This document shows, in pieces, positions 19,562 to 31,658 of a DNA stretch of 38,892 nt (the first letter of the stretch is position 1; every line of letters starts with the position of its first letter). The notes beneath the pieces were generated by a model that saw nothing but the letters and a program-made list of their open reading frames with translations, made no database searches and had not been told where the DNA came from. Location: positions 1 to 38,892 of the forward strand of contig JANYBS010000123.1 of assembly GCA_025360715.1 (NCBI GenBank), in the 5' to 3' direction. The DNA is from Candidatus Eiseniibacteriota bacterium (GTDB taxonomy: Bacteria; Eisenbacteria; RBG-16-71-46). The position numbers and the translations under genes were made by a program.

Positions 19562-20206
19562 TCAGCGCGGCGTGAGTAGCAGCGGCAGTTCCAGCGCCGC
19601 CACCGGCGCGTAGCTGAAACGGTGCAGCGCGCACGGGCCGTGGGCGCGCAGGGCGGCCATGTGCTCGGCGGTGCCATAGCCCTTGTGCTGGGCGAAGCCG
19701 TAGTGCGGGTAGACGCGGTCGAGCCGCTCCATGATGCGGTCCCGCACCACTTTGGCGAGGATGCTCGCGGCCGCGATGCTCAGGCAGGTCGCGTCGCCCG
19801 AGATCACGGTGGTCTGCTCGCACGGCAGCCCGGCCACGGGATCGTTGCCGTCGATCAGCGCGAGTTCCGGCGTGAGTGACAGCCGAAACACCGCGCGGCG
19901 CATGGCCAGATGCGTGGCCTGGCGGATATTCACCCGGTCGATCTCGCGCGGGCCGACCACCGCCCATGCGAAAGCCCGGGCGCCTTGCAGCACCCGGGCG
20001 AATGACGCATCGCGCTGCTTCGCGCTGAGTTGTTTGCTGTCGTGCAGACCGCTCCAGTCGAGCGAGAGGTCAAGCACCGCCGCTGCAGCGACCACGGGCC
20101 CGGCGAGCGGGCCGCGGCCGGCTTCATCGACACCGGCGACTGTCGCACGCTCGCCCGCGATACGGGCTTCGGCGTGCGCCAGCGTGCGCCAGCGCGGAAA
20201 CTTCAC
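19562..20206 (-). CDS. rnhB: Ribonuclease HII
   Basis: Removes ribonucleotides from DNA and RNA primers. The GTG start at 20206 overlaps the rplS stop (GTGA) and gives 214 residues, a normal length; the longer frame is a shadow inside rplS. Active-site signatures are VAGVDEAGRGPLAGPVV (Asp27, Glu28), LALIDGNDPV (third carboxylate) and SIAAASILAKVVRDRIM (fourth). The GYGTAEHMAAL motif typical of RNase HII is present. It is translationally coupled to L19, as in the common trmD-rplS-rnhB cluster. Confidence 0.96.
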   Translation of the reverse strand: MKFPRWRTLAHAEARIAGERATVAGVDEAGRGPLAGPVVAAAAVLDLSLDWSGLHDSKQLSAKQRDASFARVLQGARAFAWAVVGPREIDRVNIRQATHLAMRRAVFRLSLTPELALIDGNDPVAGLPCEQTTVISGDATCLSIAAASILAKVVRDRIMERLDRVYPHYGFAQHKGYGTAEHMAALRAHGPCALHRFSYAPVAALELPLLLTPR

Positions 20207-20568
20207 TTCTTCGCGGCTTCGACCTTGGGCGCCTTGTCCTGCAGACGGGCGGCCTTGCCCTTCTTCTTGCGCAGGTAGAACAACTTGGCGCGGCGGACCT
20301 TCTTCTGGCCGAGCACCTTGATGTCGGCGATCGACGGCGAGTGCAGCGGCCACGTGCGCTCGACACCCACACCTTCGGAGATCTTGCGGACCGTGAAGGT
20401 CTTGCGCATGCCAGCGCCACGGACGTTCGTGACCTCACCCTTGAACTTCTGCTGGCGCTCCTTGTCACCTTCGATGACTCGGACGCTCACCTCGACGGTC
20501 GTGCCGGGGCGAAGGTCAGGGGTCGCACTCTTGAGTTGCGTGTTCTCGATCTTCTCGATCAGGCCCAT
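20203..20568 (-). CDS. rplS: 50S ribosomal protein L19
   Basis: Binds at the subunit interface of the large ribosomal subunit. The ATG at 20568 has AAGGAG 6 nt upstream and starts MGLIEKIENTQLK. RPGTTVEVSVRVIEGDKERQQ and FTVRKISEGVGVERTWPLHSP are diagnostic of L19, and the end is KVRRAKLFYLRKKKGKAARL plus a short Lys/Ala tail (121 residues). It heads a two-gene unit with rnhB. It has its own promoter and a structured leader. This is unlike the usual situation, where it follows trmD directly; here trmD is about 10.3 kb upstream. Confidence 0.98.
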   Translation of the reverse strand: MGLIEKIENTQLKSATPDLRPGTTVEVSVRVIEGDKERQQKFKGEVTNVRGAGMRKTFTVRKISEGVGVERTWPLHSPSIADIKVLGQKKVRRAKLFYLRKKKGKAARLQDKAPKVEAAKK

Positions 20569-20620
20569 GGCGGGCTCCTTTCTCATCAAAAAGCCCGCTG
20601 GACGGGCGATGCATAAGCGG
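20569..20620 (-). promoter_or_regulatory. rplS 5' leader with two mutually exclusive hairpins
   Basis: The predicted leader RNA holds GCCCG (20607-20603) pairing with CGGGC (20597-20593), followed at once by five U: a terminator-like hairpin. The overlapping GCGGGCU (20598-20592) can instead pair perfectly with AGCCCGC (20576-20570), a 7-bp stem that takes in the last two bases of the AAGGAG ribosome-binding site. Both structures use the CGGGC strand, so only one can form. CAUC/GAUG also flank the first hairpin. This is a candidate attenuation or translation-control element for L19. Confidence 0.5.
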
Positions 20621-20626
20621 CCGCGG

Positions 20627-20656
20627 AGTATAGGCGAAAACGCGCTCGAGCGCCAA
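20627..20656 (-). promoter_or_regulatory. rplS promoter with overlapping palindromes
   Basis: -35 TTGGCG (20656-20651), an 18-nt spacer, and -10 TATACT (20632-20627). The 15-nt inverted repeat GCGCCAAGTTGGCGC (20650-20664) covers the -35 box. The 12-nt palindrome GCGCTCGAGCGC (20642-20653) covers the upstream end of the spacer and part of the -35. Either could be an operator. A 6-bp GC hairpin (20668-20683) just upstream may end the preceding lipoprotein transcript. Confidence 0.6.
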
Positions 20657-20730: not shown

Positions 20731-21417
20731 TTAAGGCCACCAGAAGTCGCCCAGGGCATTGCCGCAGACGAAGCCGGCGTAAGGATGGTTCCGCGATCCC
20801 ACGGTCCCCGGGGCGGGCTCGACGGTGAGCCCTTCGAGCCACCACCTTGAGCTGTCCGCAGCGACGCGTGCGGCCCTTGCAGCGGGTCTGAGCGCCGCCG
20901 CATCACCGCGCACCAGGGCGAACGCCACGACGTTCTCCATGGGCATCCTCCCCTCCCGCGCGAGCCAGCCGTCCCGGCGCGCCTCGATCCGCAGCGTGCG
21001 ATACAGCGTCCGCCGCCACGGCGTATCACTTGTGCGGGGCAGATCGTCGTCGCCCGGCTGGTAGGGCCCGAGCGTCATGTGCGTGCTCCCGGTGGCGGGC
21101 GCGCTGGCGGCGGTGCCACCGGCTGATCGGGGCATTCGAATGGTGCGAACTCGCGAGGACACGAGGCTCGTGTCGGCTTCGTCGTGGTCGCGGATCCTGC
21201 GGCTGAGCGTGTAGTCGCGCGTGAAGAGCGATTCGAGCGTTGCCACGTCATGCGCGTTCCAAGCGGCCTCGAAGAGTCGCACGACGCCTTCGGGCGTGCG
21301 GCGCAGGTCTTCGCCGTGCGCGGCAGGAATCGGCGCGAGCGGGTCGGGCGCACAGCCGGTCGGGCTCAGAACCCAGAGCAGGCACAAGCAGGTGAACGTG
21401 CGGCGGGGAGCATTCAT
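20731..21417 (-). CDS. Lipoprotein of a three-copy local family (copy A)
   Basis: A 228-residue protein with a signal peptide and lipobox (LSPTGC, Cys22). GGAGG lies 6 nt before the ATG. Next comes a segment shared with two neighbours: TPEGVVRLFEAAWNAHDVATLESLFTRDY. This reads like the start of an NTF2/SnoaL-like cone domain (polyketide-cyclase or DUF4440 type). A later shared part is FALVRGDAAALRPAARAARVAADSSRWWLEGL, matching the LVRGDS...PDSTRW motif of the other two but more diverged. The central part is variable and the end has Cys in AGFVCGNALGDFWWP. It lies upstream of the rplS promoter. Function unknown. Confidence 0.75.
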   Translation of the reverse strand: MNAPRRTFTCLCLLWVLSPTGCAPDPLAPIPAAHGEDLRRTPEGVVRLFEAAWNAHDVATLESLFTRDYTLSRRIRDHDEADTSLVSSRVRTIRMPRSAGGTAASAPATGSTHMTLGPYQPGDDDLPRTSDTPWRRTLYRTLRIEARRDGWLAREGRMPMENVVAFALVRGDAAALRPAARAARVAADSSRWWLEGLTVEPAPGTVGSRNHPYAGFVCGNALGDFWWP

Positions 21418-21495
21418 GAGTACCTCCAGGTACGCATGAACCCCCGAGTGCGCGGCGTGGTTCCAGAAGGCTGGCGCGGGTGATGAAGATTAACG

Positions 21496-22188
21496 TCAGA
21501 GATACAACATCAGCAACGAGAACCAAGTGCTTGTCTGCGTGGGCAGCGCGTGAAGGCCGCCGGAACCCGTCAGTGTCTCGTCCTCCATGCGGTCGATGTA
21601 CCACCGGGTGCTGTCGGGCTTGAAGCCCTGGGCGGCGAGCGCGGGCGGGATCTGCGCGGAGTCCCCGCGGACCAGATAGAAGAGCGCGAAGCCTTGGACC
21701 TGCTTGGTCTCGGCGGGCCCAAGACCACCATCGATGACCACATCCAACACCACGTGCGTACGAATCGCTTGATGCCAGCGGTTCGCGTGCCCGGGGCGCG
21801 GATCGCTCAGTGGCAACAGCGTGCGGTCGAAGAAGAGCGTGATCTTCGCGAGCGCCGCATGAGTGCTATCGCCCACGAACATATGCGACGTCGCCTGCAA
21901 CTCGGGATCGCGGCCCCACGGATGCGGCGCCGAATTCGCGGAGGAGTCGCCGGCGGCCGGAACCAGCACGTAGTCTTGCGCGAAGAGCGCGGAGTAGCGG
22001 TGCACGTCGCGGCTCTGCCAGCAATACTCGAAGCGTTGCACCGCGCCGGCGGGCGAGTTCGAGGATGGCGCGGAATCGGGCACGGGCTTGGGCCCTGTCG
22101 AACGCGCGAAGCAGCCGGCGAGCGCGAGCATGGTGGCTAGTGCTATGAGTGTTGCGAGTGCTGAGTAGATACGGCAGATACGCGGCAC
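21496..22188 (-). CDS. Lipoprotein of a three-copy local family (copy B)
   Basis: The GTG start at 22188 has GGAGG about 5 nt upstream and begins a signal peptide with lipobox LALAGC, giving 230 residues. An earlier start at 22239 falls in the -35 box and is rejected. The mature protein has SPAGAVQRFEYCWQSRDVHRYSALFAQDY and then WGRDPELQATSHMFVGD. HAALAKITLFFD and the well-conserved block FYLVRGDSAQIPPALAAQGFKPDSTRWYI follow. Copy C matches it closely along the whole length. The fold is probably NTF2-like. It has its own promoter at 22210-22239. Function unknown. Confidence 0.78.
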   Translation of the reverse strand: MPRICRIYSALATLIALATMLALAGCFARSTGPKPVPDSAPSSNSPAGAVQRFEYCWQSRDVHRYSALFAQDYVLVPAAGDSSANSAPHPWGRDPELQATSHMFVGDSTHAALAKITLFFDRTLLPLSDPRPGHANRWHQAIRTHVVLDVVIDGGLGPAETKQVQGFALFYLVRGDSAQIPPALAAQGFKPDSTRWYIDRMEDETLTGSGGLHALPTQTSTWFSLLMLYL

Positions 22189-22209
22189 GGCGCCTCCGGA
22201 TGAACGACA

Positions 22210-22239
22210 AGCGTAATGCTCGGCGCGCGCCCTCGCCAA
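22210..22239 (-). promoter_or_regulatory. Predicted promoter of lipoprotein copy B
   Basis: -35 TTGGCG (22239-22234), an 18-nt spacer, and -10 TACGCT (22215-22210), about 15 nt before the ribosome-binding site. The spacing and hexamers follow the same pattern as rplS and the epimerase operon. The remaining space up to 22538 holds no gene I can support; a TTGACA on the plus strand at 22270-22275 has no fitting -10. Confidence 0.5.
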
Positions 22240-22538
22240 TGCTTGGCGCGCGGGTGTGAAAGGCGGCCCTTGACACGTTTACGCGGCTGTCGAATCGCAA
22301 GGCGAGACTGCGAGTGCCGCGTGTGCGTATCGCGCCGACGCTGCCCGTACGGGCGCTGCGCGAGGTGATCACTCGCGCGTTGTCGGAGCGACGCGCGTTC
22401 GCCCACGTGCGTGGCTCTGCGAGCGCCTAAAACACGCATGCGATGATATGCACGCCACCGCGAACTCGCCCCCGCGATGGGTGTCTCGTGCAGCGTCATC
22501 GTGTCGATGTTCTCGCTCCGTCCAAGCTGCGCCGCGGC

Positions 22539-23334
22539 ATGTTCACGTATCTCAAGCGTGATCACCACAGCTTGGCCCTGTTCCTCGTGTACCTGGGCGA
22601 GTTCGACGCCCAGCAGCTCTACCTGCCCGAGGCGTACCCGTCGATGTACGCCCACTGCCGCGGCGAGCTGCGGCTCGCGCACGACGCCGCGACGCGGCGC
22701 ATACACGCTGCACGTCACGCTCGCCGCCACCCCGTGCTGATCGACGCCATCGCCGAAGGCCGAATCGAGCTGAGCGCGATCGGGCTGCTCGGCCCGCACC
22801 TGAGCGATGGCAATGCCGAGGCGCTCGTGGCGCTGGCCGCAGGCAAAAGCTGCGTCGAGATCCGCCAAGCGCTGGAGCGCGAACTCGGTTTGAACCGAGT
22901 CCCGGGCACGTTCGGCGAGGCCGACGAACTCGGTTCAAACCGAGTTCATGAAGGCGCTAAGCGCCACGAACTACGCGACTTACTCTCGGCCGAGGTTCGC
23001 GACTTGCTCGACCGCGCACACGATGGCCTGTCGCACACGGTGGGCTTCGAGGACACTCAAGAGGTGCTGCGGCGCGCCGTTCATCGAATCAAAGCGCGCG
23101 CAGGCCGCGGCCGAGCGCGCCGAGTACGCCGCCAAGGTCGCGCGGGCACAGGAGCTGGTGCCGTGGGTTCGCAGTCTCCGCGTGCCAAAGGCAGAGGCGC
23201 TCGACCTTTGCATTCGCTACGGCGACATCCCCAACGCCACGCTCGAGGAACGACTCAAGGCCGTGCTCAAGCATATGGGACCGCGCGGAACCAAGTACGA
23301 ACCTGCGCCCCCGCCCGCGCAAAAGCCTCCATGA
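22539..23334 (+). pseudogene. Frameshifted DUF222/HNH-endonuclease-family relic
   Basis: The first frame (from ATG 22539; open from 22443) reads LFLVYLGEFDAQQLYLPEAY, SMYAHCRGELRLAHDAATRRI and LSAIGLLGPHLSDGN. This is the N-terminal helical domain of a family of HNH-nuclease-like proteins abundant in uncultured high-GC bacteria. LLSAEVRDLLDRAHDGLSH and EVLRRAVHRI follow. Near 23090 the coding signal moves by +1 into the frame ending at 23334 (ESKRAQAAAERAEYAAKVARAQEL, LCIRYGDIPNATLEERLKAVLKHMGP). No HNH motif is present. Two palindromes are embedded in frame at 22882-22946. It is probably a decaying copy; a sequencing error at the shift is possible. Confidence 0.6.
22882..22946. repeat. Pair of inverted palindromic repeats inside the HNH relic
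   Basis: ACTCGGTTTGAACCGAGT (22883-22900) and its exact reverse complement ACTCGGTTCAAACCGAGT (22928-22945) lie 27 nt apart. Each is a near-perfect palindrome of two 8-nt arms. Both are read in frame as ELGLNRV and ELGSNRV. The arrangement resembles protein-coding palindromic elements of other genomes. Confidence 0.7.
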
Positions 23335-23420
23335 ACCGCCGCACGCAGCCGAGCGCTCGCGCGAGGCGTGAAGCTCGAAAACCCAACCGCCTCACGCAGC
23401 CGAGCGCTCGCGCGAGGCGT
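23334..23420. repeat. Two 36-nt direct repeats with internal palindromes between convergent genes
   Basis: Copies at 23334-23369 and 23385-23420 differ at one base and are 51 nt apart start to start. Each contains CGAGCGCTCG and the overlapping CTCGCGCGAG. In copy 2 the outer arms CGCCTC/GAGGCG close a larger stem. Copy 1 begins at the relic's stop codon, and copy 2 ends 6 nt before the stop of the convergent lipoprotein. They probably act as REP-like bidirectional transcript ends. Confidence 0.65.
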
Positions 23421-23426
23421 CACGCC

Positions 23427-24062
23427 CTAAAAAAACAGTCGCTTGATCTGCAGCCAGCTCGTGTTCGTGCCGGTGCCGGGCTGTTCGTCCCAAGTGCGGA
23501 TCCACCAGCGGGTGCTGTCGGGAACCACGCCGTGCGAGGCGAGCTTGGCGGGGATCTGCACCGAGTCGCCGCGCACCAGGTGGAACGTGGCGCCGCCGGC
23601 GTAGGTGCGCGGTTCGGTAAGGCCGTTGCTGAGCACAAGGCTCAGCTGCACCGTCGCGGTCGTGGTCACGACCTGGTGCCACTTGGGATCGGCGCCGGGC
23701 GTGGGGTCGGGCGTGGCGGTCAGGCTGGAGCCCAACTTCACCGACACTGAGGCCACGTGCGGGTGGATGACGTCGCCGATCAGGATCGACGTCGCGGTCT
23801 TCTCTTCGGCGTCGCGACCCCATGCGAGCATCACGGCGTCGGCCGAGTCGGCGCTGATCGGCGTCACGCGAAAATCGGCGCTGAGCAGGTTCGCGTAACC
23901 ATCGGCGTCACGATGGTTCCACGTGTACTCGAGCACACGCACGGCGTTCACGGGCGAGTCAGGCACAGGTGCGGCGGCAGGCGGCGGCGCGGTGGCGCTC
24001 TTGCCGCACCCGGCGAGCGTCACAAGTGCGGCGACCATGATCGCTCCATATCGGCGCTTCAC
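23427..24062 (-). CDS. Lipoprotein of a three-copy local family (copy C)
   Basis: The GTG start at 24062 has GGAGG 5 nt upstream and opens a signal peptide with lipobox TLAGC, giving 211 residues. A Pro/Ala linker follows the Cys. Then come SPVNAVRVLEYTWNHRDADGYANLLSADF, WGRDAEEKTATSILIGD, DPKWHQVVTTTATVQLSL and FHLVRGDSVQIPAKLASHGVVPDSTRWWI. The last block is nearly identical to copy B, so the two are recent relatives, with copy A more distant. It starts 29 nt after the glycosyltransferase stop and may be the last gene of the glycan operon. Function unknown. Confidence 0.78.
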   Translation of the reverse strand: MKRRYGAIMVAALVTLAGCGKSATAPPPAAAPVPDSPVNAVRVLEYTWNHRDADGYANLLSADFRVTPISADSADAVMLAWGRDAEEKTATSILIGDVIHPHVASVSVKLGSSLTATPDPTPGADPKWHQVVTTTATVQLSLVLSNGLTEPRTYAGGATFHLVRGDSVQIPAKLASHGVVPDSTRWWIRTWDEQPGTGTNTSWLQIKRLFF

Positions 24063-24091
24063 TGGAACCTCCAGTGCCACGACCCACCGCG

Positions 24092-24961
24092 TTACTCCGA
24101 AGGCGCCCAGCCATACCAGCCGCGCACGTAGCCGATCGACGCAGCGTACGACGCCAACGCGCCCAGCGGGCGGAACGCAGGCCGCGGACGCCGGTCATCG
24201 CCCGAATAAGCGATGAACGTGTGCGGGATCACGAGCAACGTACGCAGCAACAGATACCCCGCAGCGTGCAAAGGCGTGTGCAGGTAGCGCCAGCCGGCCT
24301 TCGAGGCATCGTGGCGGACCTCCTGCGAGAAGCCCACGCCATACTTGAGATGCTTGCGCCACAGTTTCTGGAACGTGGCAGGCGCGGGATGTGTGACATA
24401 CGCATGCGGCACCTGCACGAACCGGTAGCCCATGCGCCGCACGCGCGAGAAGAACTCGGTGTCGACGCCGCGATACAGGCTCTCGGAGAACCCGCCGCAT
24501 TTCTCGAATACCTCGCGGCGCATGGCCGCGCATGTCGTGGTGATGGTGCTGTAGCCGTGGCCCTCGGTGGGCGGGTTGCTCTCGAGCGGCGTCTGCACGA
24601 TTCCGTGCTCGATACGCGGCACCTGGCGCGCGACGGCGCGCTGGAACTCGGGCGCGCCTTGCGGCAGCAGCTTCGCACTGCCCGTGACGCCGATGGTGGC
24701 GTCACCCAGCGGCGCGATCAGCTGCGCGATCAACTCGGCGTTGCCCATGCGCGCGTCGTCGTCGATGAACACCAGGATCTCGGCGTCGCTTTGGCGCACG
24801 CCTTCGTTGCGCGCGCGACCGTTAGGGCGCACGCCGCGTACGATGATCACTTGATCGGGCACGCGAGTCTGCTTGGCGGCGTCGGCCTCGAGCCCTGGCG
24901 CGCCGCCTTCGAGCGCGGGCACGATGAGCGCCACGCGCGGCTCGCGCGTGCTATCCGCCAT
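24092..24961 (-). CDS. Family 2 glycosyltransferase
   Basis: A GT-A enzyme of 289 residues that transfers a sugar from a nucleotide-sugar in glycan assembly. The N-terminal strand is RVALIVPALEG. NGRARNEGVRQSDAEILVFIDDDARM contains the DxD-like metal-binding DDD. The acceptor half has FEKCGGFSESLYRGVDTEFFSRVRRMGYRFVQVPHAYVTH, with the ED-like GVDTE catalytic region. A hydrophobic C-terminal segment (HAAGYLLLRTLLVIPHTFIAY) suggests membrane association. It overlaps the upstream aminotransferase by 11 nt. Donor and acceptor are unknown. Confidence 0.9.
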   Translation of the reverse strand: MADSTREPRVALIVPALEGGAPGLEADAAKQTRVPDQVIIVRGVRPNGRARNEGVRQSDAEILVFIDDDARMGNAELIAQLIAPLGDATIGVTGSAKLLPQGAPEFQRAVARQVPRIEHGIVQTPLESNPPTEGHGYSTITTTCAAMRREVFEKCGGFSESLYRGVDTEFFSRVRRMGYRFVQVPHAYVTHPAPATFQKLWRKHLKYGVGFSQEVRHDASKAGWRYLHTPLHAAGYLLLRTLLVIPHTFIAYSGDDRRPRPAFRPLGALASYAASIGYVRGWYGWAPSE

Positions 24962-26057
24962 GTTGCGCGGTGAACGCGTTGACGGCTTCGATCACCGCGT
25001 CCTGCTGCTCGGGCCGCAGCCCCGGATACAGCGGCAGCGAGAGCAGCTCGTCGCCCGCGCGCTCGGACTCGGGGAACGCGCCGCGCGCCAAGCCCAGACT
25101 CGCGTACATGGGCTGCAGGTGCAGCGGGATCGGATAGTGCACGATGGTGCCCACGCCCGCCGCGGCCAGTGCGCTCGCAAGCACATCGCGCTGCGGATGG
25201 CGGATCGCGTAGAGGTGATACACATGCCGGCGCCGCGCCGCTGCCTGCGGGATCTGCACCCCACGCAGCCCCTCGTCGTACCGCGCCGCGAGCACGCGTC
25301 GCGCGATCGTCGCTGCGGGCAGCACGCCAAGCTTCACGCGCAGCACCGCGGCCTGCAGTTCGTCGAGGCGGCTGTTCACGCCCAGCTCCACGTGACGATA
25401 GCGCTGGCTCTGGCCGCCGTTGCGCAAGCGCCGCACTTTGTCGGCGACCGTATCGAGATTCGTCGCGACCGCGCCGCCGTCGCCGTACGCGCCCAGGTTC
25501 TTGGTCGGGTAGAACGAGAACGACGATGCCGCGCCAAAGCTGCCTGCCGGCCTGCCGTCGTATTGCGCGCCCACCGCCTGCGCGACGTCTTCGACCACCG
25601 GGATGCCGCGCCGCGCAGCGATGGCAAGGATCGGCTCCAGGTCCGCGCACTGGCCGTACAGGTGCACCGGCACGATCGCGCGCGTGCGCGGCGTGATGGC
25701 CGCTTCGAGCTTGGCCGGATCCATGGTGAGCGTGACCGGCTCCACGTCGCAGAACACCGGCCGCGCGCCGAGCATGGAGATCGCGAGGCCCGTGAACGCC
25801 GCGGTCATGGGCACCGTGACCACGTCGTCGCCGGCCGCCACGCCGACGGCTTCGAGCGCCAAGCGGATCGCGTCGGTACCGTTGCCTACGCCCAGCGCGT
25901 GGGCGCAGCCCGTAGTGGGCGCGAACTCGCGCTCGAACGCATCGCCTTCTTCGCCCAGCACGAACCAGCCGCGTTGCGCGACGCGCGTCATGGCCGCGAC
26001 GATCTCGTCGAGTATGGCCGCATCCTGCACGGCGATCGCGTTGAAGGGCACCTGCAT
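24951..26057 (-). CDS. DegT/DnrJ/EryC1/StrS-family nucleotide-sugar aminotransferase
   Basis: A PLP-dependent enzyme that aminates a keto-sugar nucleotide, making an amino sugar for the surface glycan. It has 368 residues from the ATG at 26057, with GGGAGAG upstream. Family signatures are GVGNGTDAIRLAL, the PLP-binding Asp in VVEDVAQAVGAQY (Asp157), and SSFSFYPTKNLGAYGDGG with the Schiff-base Lys186. NSRLDELQAAVLRVKL and the C-terminal HYPIPLHLQPMY follow. The neighbouring epimerase, flippase and glycosyltransferases support a polysaccharide role. The substrate (for example a 3-keto or 4-keto hexose) cannot be decided from sequence. Confidence 0.94.
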   Translation of the reverse strand: MQVPFNAIAVQDAAILDEIVAAMTRVAQRGWFVLGEEGDAFEREFAPTTGCAHALGVGNGTDAIRLALEAVGVAAGDDVVTVPMTAAFTGLAISMLGARPVFCDVEPVTLTMDPAKLEAAITPRTRAIVPVHLYGQCADLEPILAIAARRGIPVVEDVAQAVGAQYDGRPAGSFGAASSFSFYPTKNLGAYGDGGAVATNLDTVADKVRRLRNGGQSQRYRHVELGVNSRLDELQAAVLRVKLGVLPAATIARRVLAARYDEGLRGVQIPQAAARRRHVYHLYAIRHPQRDVLASALAAAGVGTIVHYPIPLHLQPMYASLGLARGAFPESERAGDELLSLPLYPGLRPEQQDAVIEAVNAFTAQHGG

Positions 26058-26073
26058 GATCTCTCCCACTGGG

Positions 26074-27564
26074 CTATCCCAACCGCGCGGCGAGCGCGCC
26101 GACGCGCGGGTTGAGCCGCGCGAGCAGGCGCTTGTCGGCCGCATCGAACGGCCGCAGCAGCGCAAGCGCGCCGAGGCATACCACGAGCCCCACGACACCC
26201 GCCACCGCGAGCCCTGCGACGCCGGGCAACGCCGGCAACCACTGCACCGCCAGCAACGAAGCCCCGCACGCCAGTAGCAGCTTGAACGAGAACGCCAGCG
26301 GCAGCCCCGTGTCCGTGTGCCGCGCGACGAGCACGCTCGAGGCGATGCTCGAGCCGGCCAGCGCGATGCCCGTGCCCATCACGGCGCCAAGTCCGCCGAA
26401 GCGCGGAACCAGGATCAGGTTCAGCACCAGGTTCGAGACACCACTCACGCCATACAGGATCAGTGGTACGCGCGGGCGGCCGATCGCGTACAACACGGTC
26501 ATGTTCGTGCCGCCGCCGGTGATGCGCGCGATCACCCACGCGAACGTGTACGCCGTGAGCAGGAACGCCGCCGGCGCGAAACTCGCGGCATAGAGCAGGT
26601 GGACGATAGCGCCCGCGAAGCGCGCGCCGAAGATGAGCAGGGGGATACTCAGCAATTGATCGAGCTTCAGGTGCAGCGACCAGAGCGTGCCGAGTCCCGC
26701 GCGGTCGACGCGCTGCTCCAGTTCCGAGAACGCCGCGAGCGACACGCCTTCGGTGCCCATGAGTAGCGCGCTCGCGAGCAGGTTCACCAATAAGGACGCC
26801 GCGGCGTACCAGCCGGCCTCGCTCGTGCCCGGCTTGAGGTAGCCGATGAGCAGCACGTCGCTCTGACGGCCCAGGAAGAACGTGACGAAACTCGTGGCCC
26901 AGATGGTGTAGCCGAACGTACGCAGCGCTCGCGTATCGAACGCCTCGCCGGGCGCTTGCAACACCGGCGCGGCGCCGGCGGCGAGGATCGTGACGCCGAT
27001 CAGCGTCGCGCCGGCGAGCGACGCCAGCAACCATGCCGCGGGCCAATGAAGCGCGAGAGTGGCGATCGCCGCCGCGAGCCCCAGGCTCTGCACCACCAAG
27101 CGCGCGGCCGAGACGCGCGGCACCTGCATGGCGCCCATGTGGAAGTACTCGAGCAACAGCGACACGTTGTAAAAGCACACGTACACCGCAGCCACGCGGA
27201 GGAGCGGAATGAGCGCCGGCTCGTGATACGCGCGCGCCACGAGCGGCGCGCCCAGCGCGAACGCCGCAGCCAGCGCCAACGCCATGAGCACCCGCGTGCC
27301 GAGCACCGCGCGGAGCAGATGCGCGATGCGGGCGGGATGCTCGCGAAGGCGTGGCACGTGCACGTTGAGGATCTCGTTGAGCCCGAGCGAGGTCGCGAAA
27401 TAGCTGAGCGTGACCGCCGAGAGCGCCACCGAGTAGACGCCGAACGCCTGCGCACCCAACGCGCGCGCCGCGATCACGCTGGCGGCGTAGGCCGCGCCCA
27501 GCTCGATGAACCGGCTGACTTGATTCCAGAGCAGCCCGCGGCCAAAACGCTCTGCAAAACTCAT
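26074..27564 (-). CDS. Polysaccharide flippase (Wzx/MATE-like, oligosaccharide flippase family)
   Basis: Translocates undecaprenyl-linked oligosaccharide units across the inner membrane. It has 496 residues and about 12-14 hydrophobic helices over the whole length. The N-terminal SFAERFGRGLLWNQVSRFIELGAAYAASVIAARALG is typical. AFGVYSVALS, FFLGRQSDVLLIGYLKPGTSEAGWYAAASLLVN and GRPRVPLILYGVSGVSNLVLNLILVPRFGGLGAV are the usual flippase landmarks. The ATG overlaps the upstream methyltransferase stop (ATGA). No Wzy polymerase is seen in the window, so polymerisation must be encoded elsewhere or be absent. Confidence 0.92.
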   Translation of the reverse strand: MSFAERFGRGLLWNQVSRFIELGAAYAASVIAARALGAQAFGVYSVALSAVTLSYFATSLGLNEILNVHVPRLREHPARIAHLLRAVLGTRVLMALALAAAFALGAPLVARAYHEPALIPLLRVAAVYVCFYNVSLLLEYFHMGAMQVPRVSAARLVVQSLGLAAAIATLALHWPAAWLLASLAGATLIGVTILAAGAAPVLQAPGEAFDTRALRTFGYTIWATSFVTFFLGRQSDVLLIGYLKPGTSEAGWYAAASLLVNLLASALLMGTEGVSLAAFSELEQRVDRAGLGTLWSLHLKLDQLLSIPLLIFGARFAGAIVHLLYAASFAPAAFLLTAYTFAWVIARITGGGTNMTVLYAIGRPRVPLILYGVSGVSNLVLNLILVPRFGGLGAVMGTGIALAGSSIASSVLVARHTDTGLPLAFSFKLLLACGASLLAVQWLPALPGVAGLAVAGVVGLVVCLGALALLRPFDAADKRLLARLNPRVGALAARLG

Positions 27565-28205
27565 GCGCCGCGTTCGACGCGCGCAAGGCTGAGCGCGCTG
27601 AAGAGGTTCGGCCACGCGCGCGCCATCACCGAAGCCGTGCGGCTATCGCGGCCGAAGTGCTCCGCCGCCGTGATGCGGGCGTTGCGCGCGCGCACAAGCG
27701 CCTGGAAATCCGCCCACGTGCATAGGTGGATGTGGCGCGTCTCGTACCACGCGCGGCCGTAGAGCGGCTTGCTCGGGAAGTGGCCCGCGAGCAACTGCGC
27801 GCGGCAGATCCAGTGGCCCAGGTTGGGAAAGCTCACGAGCGCCACGGGCGCCACACGCAGCATCTCCTGAAGCACGAACGCCGGGCGGTAGACCATCATG
27901 AGCGTCACGTTGAGCACGGCCACATCGAAGCTGGAGTCTGCGTATGGCAGGCCCTGATCCACGTCGCCCTCACGGGCGTCGAGGCCGGCTTCGCGCGCCT
28001 TGGCTGCGCCAGCGGGGTCGATCTCGATGCCGCTGACGCGCGCATGTCGCTGGGCGATGAGTTGCGCGCCCAAGCGGCCGTCGCCGCAGCCCACGTCGAG
28101 CACGCGGGCACCTTCGCTCACCCAGCGCACCAGCACCGGATACTCGGCGCGGTCATGAGACTCACGCTGCGCCCAGCCATAGTCCGTGCGCGCTGCGGCG
28201 GTCAT
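27561..28205 (-). CDS. MetW-like class I methyltransferase
   Basis: A 214-residue protein. SEGARVLDVGCGDGRLGAQL is SAM motif I, GIEIDP holds the acidic ribose contact, and DVDQGLPYADSSFDVAVLN follows. The rest matches MetW closely: LQEMLRVAPVALVSFPNLGHWICRAQLL, then RAWYETRHIHLCTWADFQALV. MetW normally works with MetX in methionine synthesis, but no metX is present. In glycan clusters MetW-like enzymes are often annotated as sugar methyltransferases. It overlaps both neighbours by 4 nt (ATGA on each side). Confidence 0.85.
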   Translation of the reverse strand: MTAAARTDYGWAQRESHDRAEYPVLVRWVSEGARVLDVGCGDGRLGAQLIAQRHARVSGIEIDPAGAAKAREAGLDAREGDVDQGLPYADSSFDVAVLNVTLMMVYRPAFVLQEMLRVAPVALVSFPNLGHWICRAQLLAGHFPSKPLYGRAWYETRHIHLCTWADFQALVRARNARITAAEHFGRDSRTASVMARAWPNLFSALSLARVERGA

Positions 28206-28885
28206 GACGCTGCCTTGCGCGCCACCAGCACGTTGTCGAGCGTATCGCCGCGGCGGCCCGTGAGCTCGTCGAGTGCCACCGCGAACAACTGCCACAGCGC
28301 GAGCAGCGGCCGCACCGCCAGGTTGAGCGGCTTCACCTTCACGATCCCGGTCGAATAGAACCACCACGACGCCGTGCGCTGGCCGGCCATCGCCCATGTG
28401 CCGCAGGTGGGGGTGACACTCACGACCTCGAAGCCATGCTTGTGCGCCAGGTACGAGAGCCCGTAGCGCGTGTAGCGGTAGAAGTCCCAGGGCTCTTCGT
28501 GCAGCCCCCACACCTGCGGCGTGGTGAGCAGCAGGATGCCGCCGGGGCGCAGCACGCGCGCGGCTTCTGCGAACAACTGCGAGGGCTCGGGCACGTGTTC
28601 GAGCACTTCGTTGCAGAGCACGGTGTCCATGCTCGCGGGCGCGAACGGCAGATGAAGCGCATCGCCCCACACGTCGACGACGCGGCTGTGCGACAGCGTA
28701 CCCGGGCGTTCGATGCCCAGATAGTCGCGGCACTGCGGGAACATCGCGCGGTAGGGCTTGATGCCGCAGCCCACGTCCAGGAGACGCCCGTGCGCGTGAT
28801 GCGCGACGCCCGCCAGCCCTCGCTTGAGGCTGCGCTTGGCGATCCATAACGGATCGAGGACCGTGCCGATCAGGAGCTGCTTCAT
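28202..28885 (-). CDS. Class I SAM-dependent methyltransferase (Methyltransf_11)
   Basis: A 227-residue protein with motif I GRLLDVGCGIKPYRAMF, an acidic contact in YLGIERPG and motif IV in STMDTVLCNEVLEHV-like ASMDTVLCNEVLEHV. The segment WDFYRYTRYGLSYLAHKHGF is characteristic of methyltransferases from polysaccharide clusters. The C-terminal stretch (RPLLALWQLFAVALDEL) is hydrophobic and may touch the membrane. It overlaps the GT4 gene upstream and the MetW-like gene downstream by 4 nt each. It is probably a sugar or lipid-linked glycan methyltransferase; the exact substrate is unknown. Confidence 0.88.
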   Translation of the reverse strand: MKQLLIGTVLDPLWIAKRSLKRGLAGVAHHAHGRLLDVGCGIKPYRAMFPQCRDYLGIERPGTLSHSRVVDVWGDALHLPFAPASMDTVLCNEVLEHVPEPSQLFAEAARVLRPGGILLLTTPQVWGLHEEPWDFYRYTRYGLSYLAHKHGFEVVSVTPTCGTWAMAGQRTASWWFYSTGIVKVKPLNLAVRPLLALWQLFAVALDELTGRRGDTLDNVLVARKAAS

Positions 28886-30108
28886 GCGCGCGCCTGCCTT
28901 GCGATCACAGCTGCCGCCTCGTACACGCGCAGCGTGCCGTCGACCATCGCGCCCAGGCTGAAGCGGGCCTCGATGGTGCGCCGCGCCTCGGCGCCCAACC
29001 GCTGCGCGAGCGCCGTGTCATCGAGCAGGCGCGTGAGTTGCGCGGCCAGCGCGGCGGCATCGCCGGGCGGCGCCAGCAGGCCATCGCGATCGGCGGCCAC
29101 CGCCGTGGGCACGCTGCCGATGTCGCTCACCACCACCGGCTTCGCATGCGCCATGGCCTGGAGAATGGTGAGGTCGTAGCCATTGATGCGCACAGTGGGG
29201 TTCACGAACGCGTCGCACGCCGCGTAGTAGGCCGGCAGCGCCTCGAGCGCCACCGAGCCGACGAAGCGCACACTTGAGCTCACACCCAACGACCGGGCCA
29301 GCGCTTCCAGCTCGCCGCGATACGGCCCATCGCCAACAATCACGAACACGGCGTTCAGCCGCGCGCGCAGCACCTGCGGCCACGCGCGCAGCGCGTGATG
29401 GATGCCCTTTTCTTGATACAGCCGCGCGACGGCCAGCACGATGGGCCCACCCAAAGGCGCGAGTTCGGCGCGCAGCGCCGCATCGGCGGGCCGCGGCGAG
29501 AAGAGCTGCGCGTCGATACCGTTCCACACGTCATGCAATCGCGCAGGGTTCACGCCATAGCGCTCCAGCAGCACCACGCGCTGCTCCACACTGGTGGCGA
29601 TCACGCCGTGCGCTCGCTTGAGCCGCGGGCCTTCGTTCAGGTATCGCCCCAGCATGAGTCCCCAAAGCGCCGACGCCTTGAGCGCCGACGCCGGACGCGC
29701 CGGCAGGCTCTCGCGGATCAAGCCTGCGCGCGTGCGCAGTTCGTCCCAGTGCGTGCCGTGCAGCGACGCCACCACCGGCACGCCGGGCCATGCATCGATC
29801 AGATGCAGCCCACAGAAGCTCTGCGAGTGCACCACGTCCCATGCGCCATGCTCGCGTGCCAAGCGCTCCAGGCAGCCGCGGCTGTCGCGCTCCCACGCCC
29901 CGATCGCGCGCATGGGCGGCACGTTCGTGAGGTATTCCACGCGCACGCCGCCGAGCGTCTCGGTGACCGAGCCTTCGCGGCGGCCCGTGGTGACGAGCGT
30001 CACCTGGTGCCCGCGGTTCGCAAGCCCCGCGCACAAGCTCCAGACGATGTCCTGCACGCCGCCGCGGCCATGCGCGGGGCCGACTGGGGAAAGTTGCGCG
30101 ATCCTCAT
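28882..30108 (-). CDS. Family 4 glycosyltransferase
   Basis: A GT-B enzyme of 408 residues. The acceptor domain begins MRIAQLSPVGPAHGRGGVQDIVWSL with the Gly-rich loop. The bridge has VIATSVEQRVVLLERYGV and VWNGIDAQLFSP. The donor domain has VLAVARLYQEKGIHHAL, VIVGDGPYRGELEAL, and DAFVNPTVRINGYDLTILQAMAHAKPVV, where the usual EGFG is replaced by NGYD. The start overlaps the upstream methyltransferase stop (ATGA); the longer frame is a shadow. It is a retaining transferase for the surface glycan with an unknown sugar. Confidence 0.93.
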   Translation of the reverse strand: MRIAQLSPVGPAHGRGGVQDIVWSLCAGLANRGHQVTLVTTGRREGSVTETLGGVRVEYLTNVPPMRAIGAWERDSRGCLERLAREHGAWDVVHSQSFCGLHLIDAWPGVPVVASLHGTHWDELRTRAGLIRESLPARPASALKASALWGLMLGRYLNEGPRLKRAHGVIATSVEQRVVLLERYGVNPARLHDVWNGIDAQLFSPRPADAALRAELAPLGGPIVLAVARLYQEKGIHHALRAWPQVLRARLNAVFVIVGDGPYRGELEALARSLGVSSSVRFVGSVALEALPAYYAACDAFVNPTVRINGYDLTILQAMAHAKPVVVSDIGSVPTAVAADRDGLLAPPGDAAALAAQLTRLLDDTALAQRLGAEARRTIEARFSLGAMVDGTLRVYEAAAVIARQARA

Positions 30109-30881
30109 GACACACGCGCCTCGATCAATATCCAGCGCGCCCAGTGCTTGAGCGCGCCGTCGCCCCACGCGCGGTCCCATGCGCGCGCCGGCGCGTGCAG
30201 CGGCCCGCGGCCCAGAAGACGGTGCCACAGGCGCTCGCCGCGGTGCGGGAACGTGTACACACCCAGTTCGCGCGAGACGCGCAGGTTCGCTTGCAAGAAC
30301 AGCGCGCGCAGCCAACCGATCGTCTCGCAGCGCGGCAGGCGCACCGCGCAGAACTCGCGCAGATGCTCTTCTTCATCGAGGAACCTCACGCGACCCGTGG
30401 CCTTGGCCTCGAGCCAGCGTGACCAACCCACCACCGGCACGCTCACCAACACGCGGCCACCGGGCTTGGTCACGCGTCCCAACTCACGCAGCGAAGCGGC
30501 CGGATCCAGTACATGCTCGAGCACTTCCGCGCAGATCGTGAGGTCGAAGCTCGCACTCGCCAACGGCAGCGCGTCGGCGCTCGCGCAAGCGAACTCGCCG
30601 CGGCCCAGGCGCGTGCGCGCGCGCTGCAGGCGGCCGGCGGCAAGGTCGAGGCCGACCACACGCGCAGGTGGCGCGGGCAGTGCGTCGATCACGGCGCCCA
30701 GCAACACGGCATCGCCGCAGCCGACTTCGAGCACGGCGGCCGCGGGTTCGCTCGCGGCCATCCGCACGGTCTCCTCGACACGGCGCGTGGGCGCGAACCA
30801 GCGAAAGTGCACGTCCTGCATATCGCCGCGCGTGGCGGACTGGTGCTCGTACAAATCACGCTGCTGCTGGCGGGCGTCCAT
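30105..30881 (-). CDS. Class I SAM-dependent methyltransferase
   Basis: A 258-residue protein with motif I AAVLEVGCGDAVLLGAV, a GLDLA contact, the SADALPLASASFDLTICAEVLEHV region, and GRVTKPGGRVLVSVPV. The C-terminal domain is Arg/Trp-rich (FPHRGERLWHRLLG, WGDGALKHWARWIL). It is the first glycan-type gene after trmD, 12 nt downstream of its stop, and it overlaps the GT4 gene. The housekeeping and glycan genes are thus on one transcript. Its substrate is unknown. Confidence 0.86.
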   Translation of the reverse strand: MDARQQQRDLYEHQSATRGDMQDVHFRWFAPTRRVEETVRMAASEPAAAVLEVGCGDAVLLGAVIDALPAPPARVVGLDLAAGRLQRARTRLGRGEFACASADALPLASASFDLTICAEVLEHVLDPAASLRELGRVTKPGGRVLVSVPVVGWSRWLEAKATGRVRFLDEEEHLREFCAVRLPRCETIGWLRALFLQANLRVSRELGVYTFPHRGERLWHRLLGRGPLHAPARAWDRAWGDGALKHWARWILIEARVS

Positions 30882-30893
30882 GCGCGCAGGGCC

Positions 30894-31658
30894 TCAAGTC
30901 TCGCGGCGCGCGGCGCGCAGCCGTTCGAGTTGAATCAGGAATCTCCGATCGGCATCCGTGAGCGGCGCACCCGTAAGCAGGTCGGGCCGGCGCTCGAACG
31001 TGCGGCGCAGCGACTCTTCACGCCGCGCCTTGGCGACGTTCGCGTGATGGCCGCTGAGCAGCACCTCGGGCACGCGCCATTCGCCGTAGACCTCGGGGCG
31101 CGTGTAGTACGCGCAGTCGAGCAAGCCGGAATGAAACGAATCGCTCTCGGCCGAATCGAAGCGGCCGAGCACGTCGGGCTGCAGGCGCGCGAGCGCATCG
31201 ACCACACAGAGCGCGGCGGGCTCGCCGCCCGAGAGCACGAAGTCGCCGACCGAGAACTCCTCGTCGATCAGGTGCTCGGCCACACGCTCGTCGACGCCCT
31301 TGTAGCGGCCGCAGACGATGGTCACGTGCTCGAGCGCGGCCCATTCGATGGCAGTAGCTTGGTCGAAGCGTCGGCCCTGCGGCGAAGTCAGCAGGACTTT
31401 CGAGTTCGCGGGCCGCTGGCCCTTGATCGAGTTTCCGCTCGCCTCAAGCGCCGCGTGCAGCGGCTCGATCTTCATGACCATGCCGGGGCCGCCGCCGAAC
31501 GGAGCGTCGTCGACGGTCTTGTGCACGTCGTGCGTGTAGTCGCGCAGGTTCACCACGTTCACGTCGAGCTTCCCCTTCTCGCGCGCCACGCGGATCATGC
31601 CATCGCCAAAGGGGCCGGGGAAGAACTCGGGGAAGATCGTGATGATCGTCAACTTCAC
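30894..31658 (-). CDS. trmD: tRNA (guanine37-N1)-methyltransferase
   Basis: Methylates G37 of tRNAs reading CNN/GNN codons, preventing frameshifts. The GTG start at 31658 overlaps the rimM stop (GTGA) and gives 254 residues; the longer frame is a shadow in rimM. Diagnostic motifs are ITIFPEFF, NLRDYTHDVHKTVDDAPFGGGPGMVM (SAM/tRNA loop), CGRYKGVDERV, EEFSVGDFVLSGGEPAAL (trefoil knot), and the C-terminal PEVLLSGHHANVAKAR. It is followed within 12 nt by a methyltransferase of the glycan operon instead of by rplS. Confidence 0.98.
   Translation of the reverse strand: MKLTIITIFPEFFPGPFGDGMIRVAREKGKLDVNVVNLRDYTHDVHKTVDDAPFGGGPGMVMKIEPLHAALEASGNSIKGQRPANSKVLLTSPQGRRFDQATAIEWAALEHVTIVCGRYKGVDERVAEHLIDEEFSVGDFVLSGGEPAALCVVDALARLQPDVLGRFDSAESDSFHSGLLDCAYYTRPEVYGEWRVPEVLLSGHHANVAKARREESLRRTFERRPDLLTGAPLTDADRRFLIQLERLRAARRET

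Follow-up and report, generated by a model that had tools for sequence, protein, structure and literature searches.

A putative stem-loop leader of rplS in one family of Candidatus Eisenbacteria

Introduction

What does a short, structured leader do between a dedicated promoter and the start codon of rplS, the gene for ribosomal protein L19, in a Candidatus Eisenbacteria MAG? The question arises from a stretch of 38,892 nucleotides of this MAG (contig JANYBS010000123.1), the whole of which is here called the window. The original prediction placed two competing RNA structures in this leader, one resembling a transcription terminator and the other reaching into the ribosome-binding site. A 2024 review notes that nothing is known of how E. 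coli regulates its trmD operon, which holds rplS, and that such a lack of regulatory information is rare among r-protein operons (PMC10931766). L19 leaders have been reported from Firmicutes and Flavobacteria (PMC7247131) and from Thermotogales (PMC3766115), and our literature search found no paper in which Eisenbacteria and riboswitch are both named.

Results

The rplS gene of the window lies on the minus strand at 20203..20568, the start being taken as the ATG at 20568, and the ORF encodes an L19 of 121 amino acids with close relatives in 17 further genomes of its family. It is preceded on the same strand by what reads as a good sigma-70-type promoter, with the -35 element TTGGCG at 20651..20656, a spacer of 18 nt and the -10 box TATACT at 20627..20632, followed by a G+C-rich discriminator. 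The predicted leader hairpin, GCCCGU-CCA-GCGGGC (20593..20607), has six pairs including a closing U.G pair, with the arms GCCCG at 20607-20603 and CGGGC at 20597-20593, and a terminator-like UUUUU follows at 20588..20592. Behind it come the Shine-Dalgarno (SD) sequence AAAGGAG (20575..20581) and, overlapping its end, AGCCCGC (20570..20576), a weakly conserved element that in the minimum free energy (MFE) fold is the alternative partner of GCGGGCU (20592-20598). Both structures of the original prediction can thus be recognized between the promoter and the ATG, and they exclude each other through the common CGGGC strand.

Comparison of 18 rplS upstream regions of the host's family, in which the gene was located in 18 of 20 genomes, with 24 regions from other families of the class showed that this layout is a property of the family. 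A -10 box (TATACT, TATAGT, TATAAT or TAGACT) was present in all 18 members, ending 56 to 71 nt before the start codon, and most members had a TTG(G/A)-like -35 element 16 to 18 nt ahead of it. All 18 also had the G+C-rich discriminator and an AAAGGA SD, so that the predicted position of the promoter upstream of the hairpin holds throughout (18/18). The G+C hairpin itself was clear in 17 of the 18 leaders, its 3' end lying about 6 to 13 nt upstream of the SD; the remaining leader (L010) folds atypically into a longer, irregular hairpin.

In other families of the class rplS follows trmD immediately or with a small gap between them and lacks this leader; one of the 24 loci (L028) begins at a contig end and is not judgeable. 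Within the host's family trmD is often still near rplS on the same contig. In L013 (genome G014) trmD ends 180 nt before rplS, with the promoter and hairpin in that gap, while in the window trmD is about 10 kb away with other genes in between (20731-30984), and the trmD-rplS gap has thus been invaded to differing extents within one family. Since the leader is kept although the distance to trmD differs between these two loci, the predicted leader is tied to the family and not to any particular upstream gene. As a separate observation, three neighbouring minus-strand ORFs in the window (20731-21417, 21496-22239 and 23427-24080, within 20731-24080) look like related lipoprotein-like proteins that share the motif VVRLFEAAWNAHD, AVQRFEYCWQSRD, AVRVLEYTWNHRD and are perhaps a tandem family.

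The hairpin is stronger than the base composition of these leaders would predict. The best perfect hairpin per leader averaged -9.1 kcal/mol, while dinucleotide shuffles gave -4.7 +/- 0.69 kcal/mol (z -6.3), and averaging by genus gave -8.5 against -5.2 kcal/mol (z -4.2), with none of 500 shuffles as good. While 14 of the 18 leaders contained a perfect hairpin of -9 kcal/mol or below, the share was 13.8% for random 40-mers and 7.7% for a set of 26 other likely gene starts. By overall MFE the leaders were just slightly more stable than G+C-rich background DNA (p 0.05), which is expected because the DNA is so rich in G+C.

When 17 sequences were aligned by hand, five pairs of the stem were standard in every sequence and the sixth in 15, and each of the six positions showed at least two pair types, with compensation, although the arms had been chosen as hairpins, which biases the pair count and inflates the test. 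An unselected arm-swap test with fixed cuts was moderate overall for the upstream hairpin: at cuts 19 and 20 the p value was about 0.01 when species were counted and 0.03 when genera were, and cuts 17 and 18 gave nonsignificant values of 0.07 to 0.17. The pairs hardly vary in the GCCCG/CGGGC core group, which by itself therefore gives no covariation, and pair counting in a MAFFT alignment of the core sequences was uninformative, the core being near-invariant and two rows out of register. Stems were rewritten on both sides in g3, g4, g6 and g13. The position of the hairpin is near-constant, loop lengths and sequences vary, G.U pairs occur, and no conserved loop or bulge bases were seen in the family leaders. 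Conservation of the upstream stem in relatives, with compensated changes, was thus supported in the alignment, with a clear hairpin in 17 of 18 members and six compensated positions. A conserved 5' UTR structure with compensated changes, as is looked for in an r-protein leader, is accordingly what these regions contain, the fixed-cut test being only moderate.

A covariance model built from 11 of the rplS leaders and searched against 47 genomes recovered four left-out rplS leaders (G017, G009, G014 and G007; E values of 2e-5 to 5e-3), and within the family hardly any further match scored as well as these. Among the other matches in the 47 genomes a single one was below 1e-4. The best off-target match, before a thioredoxin-like gene in G001, seems mainly to reflect a shared GAAAGGAGCCCG around the SD and has the appearance of a chance resemblance.

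The layout of promoter, leader and SD occurs once in the window's genome. It is therefore unlikely to be a feature of leaders in these genomes at large, and the regions upstream of rplU and rpsO also look different from it. About 120 nt upstream of rpsO (S15; L172-L187) there is a conserved, covarying stem with 11 predicted pairs, 5 of them with changes on both sides among 8 sequences; a scan of six loci with Rfam matched nothing there, and the stem is a candidate for an undescribed S15 leader. The rplU (L21) upstream regions (L154-L170, about 110 nt) have conserved blocks in common, for example CCCAGAGGTC in some members of the window's genus; a scan of four of these loci matched no known r-leader.

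Discussion

The best reading of these comparisons is a new, clade-specific leader hairpin of rplS that would act at the RNA level, perhaps in feedback by L19. The rplS gene would have gained its own promoter in the host's Eisenbacteria family and, together with it, the stem-loop that ends about 6 to 13 nt upstream of the SD; the stem-loop would then work as RNA on the translation or stability of the rplS mRNA, and the leader would take over the control formerly given by the operon. That the family has its own rplS promoter and a leader of about 50 to 65 nt whose G+C stem-loop acts in this way is, in our estimate, about evenly balanced between being right and wrong. The likeliest specific mechanism, which we propose tentatively, is feedback through binding of L19 to the hairpin beside the ribosome-binding site. 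The hairpin has no conserved loop or bulge bases, in contrast to most protein-binding leaders, and a passive contribution to translation or to the stability of the mRNA that needs no ligand is about as likely. The most elaborate version may apply but is rather improbable: an undescribed L19 autoregulatory leader, limited to one Eisenbacteria family, which originated as rplS separated from the rpsP-rimM-trmD-rplS operon and in which the 3' strand of the hairpin can also cover the ribosome-binding site.

The stem could also be without function, an incidental hairpin in G+C-rich leaders of limited divergence. Such a hairpin is contained in 14% of random 40-mers from these genomes, and the fixed-cut tests are moderate at best, but neither the absence of an equally good result in 500 genus-level shuffles nor the near-constant position of stems that have been rewritten on both sides fits this well, and we find it unlikely. 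An inverted repeat just downstream of a promoter might alternatively be a DNA operator that binds a repressor, and its location near +10 to +25 would suit repression. However, the spacing of the half-sites ranges from 3 to 7 or more nt, their sequences differ among genera and G-T positions are tolerated. Because the loop varies in length and sequence and G.U pairs occur, an RNA stem fits better than a DNA operator, which we regard as very improbable.

The two functions originally proposed for the leader fared differently among the relatives. A scan for terminator-like sites gave 3 in the region against 0.9 expected, and in the window the site comes after the promoter, as it would in a transcription attenuator in which GCCCG/CGGGC and the UUUUU end rplS transcription unless the alternative stem forms. 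However, among the 18 family members only the window has five consecutive U behind the stem. None of the 17 relatives has them, and at this position the three further species of the window's genus read CGAU, CAUU and CAUUUG. The combination of a G+C stem with a direct U-run, which would mark an intrinsic terminator if conserved, is thus seen in the window only, and since the U-run is confined to it, attenuation is no conserved property. The terminator claim finds no support in these comparisons, and with a stem this short (-9.0 kcal/mol) an attenuator would be at most a trait of the window species, which makes this reading very unlikely. The SD-covering stem is weakly supported. In the window the 7-bp GCGGGCU:AGCCCGC pairing is real, it is extended to 11 pairs by pairing of the U-run with the AAGG of the SD, and it is part of the MFE fold, whose energy of -29 kcal/mol (z -2.8) was reached by 3 of 200 shuffles. 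Such a stem could belong to a three-strand switch in which CGGGC pairs either with the upstream GCCCG, leaving the SD open, or with the GCCCG before the ATG, closing it, with the choice between the two shifted by a ligand such as L19. The pairing is strong in the window and in L004; between the 3' arm and the GCCCG that lies between the SD and the ATG it comprises 7 to 8 bp in the window's genus and about 4 to 6 bp in several others, and L005 has kept a shifted pairing (CACGG:CCGUG) after its ribosome-binding site changed. In contrast, five loci (L008, L010, L013, L016 and L018) have lost it as such. A comparison of own with swapped partners preferred the former by species (p 0.014 and 0.037; 0.02 to 0.03 at two of four cuts), which the 5'-arm control did not, but was not significant by genus (p 0.14; 0.12 to 0.52 across fixed cuts). 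The predicted exposure of the SD hardly differed, at 0.57 with the hairpin and 0.52 with the 5' arm blocked; it was higher in 8 of 17 leaders and changed clearly in silico only in L001, L004 and L015. Common descent or pairing across the ATG may also keep GCCCG in place. The competing stem that had been predicted therefore stands for the window and is recognizable in its genus and some others, while several genera lack it or have it in altered form, and the covariation expected of it is seen by species (p about 0.01 to 0.04) and not by genus (p above 0.1). The SD-covering form may work in the window's genus but is not general across the family, and a switch of this kind is, on balance, quite doubtful.

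A clade with its own rplS promoter and a conserved hairpin would allow tests of how the supply of L19 is regulated once its gene has left the operon, and would add a candidate r-leader to the phylum Eisenbacteria.

Like the known L19 leader (RF00556), the leader preferred here, with its RNA-level stem-loop, is a structured element upstream of rplS, but the two differ in that no match to RF00556 was found at rplS among those listed for the 20 family genomes, even at an E value of 10 or less. The gathering cut-off of 36 bits was not reached at the rplS leader; in the same search one of 14 control genomes exceeded it, and the positive control failed, as Rfam gave no L19 leader on six rplS loci from Clostridia/Bacillota. 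Rfam as a whole gave no match, either in the window or in the leader regions of 12 loci. The original statement that the leader is unlike the known L19 leader agrees with these searches, and we reject that leader as its identity. With stabilizing 5' hairpins of the ompA type it shares a simple stem-loop in a short leader. Hairpins of that type sit at the extreme 5' end, whereas here the stem of most members is predicted to follow about 10 to 14 unpaired nt, counted from a predicted start site, which makes a classical 5'-end stabilizer less likely. Compared to the leaders of other r-proteins (for example S15, L20, L21 and L10), the rplS leader is a single simple hairpin with a variable loop and no invariant unpaired bases, but it resembles them in having its own promoter, a conserved structure between the promoter and the ribosome-binding site, and a distribution confined to one clade.
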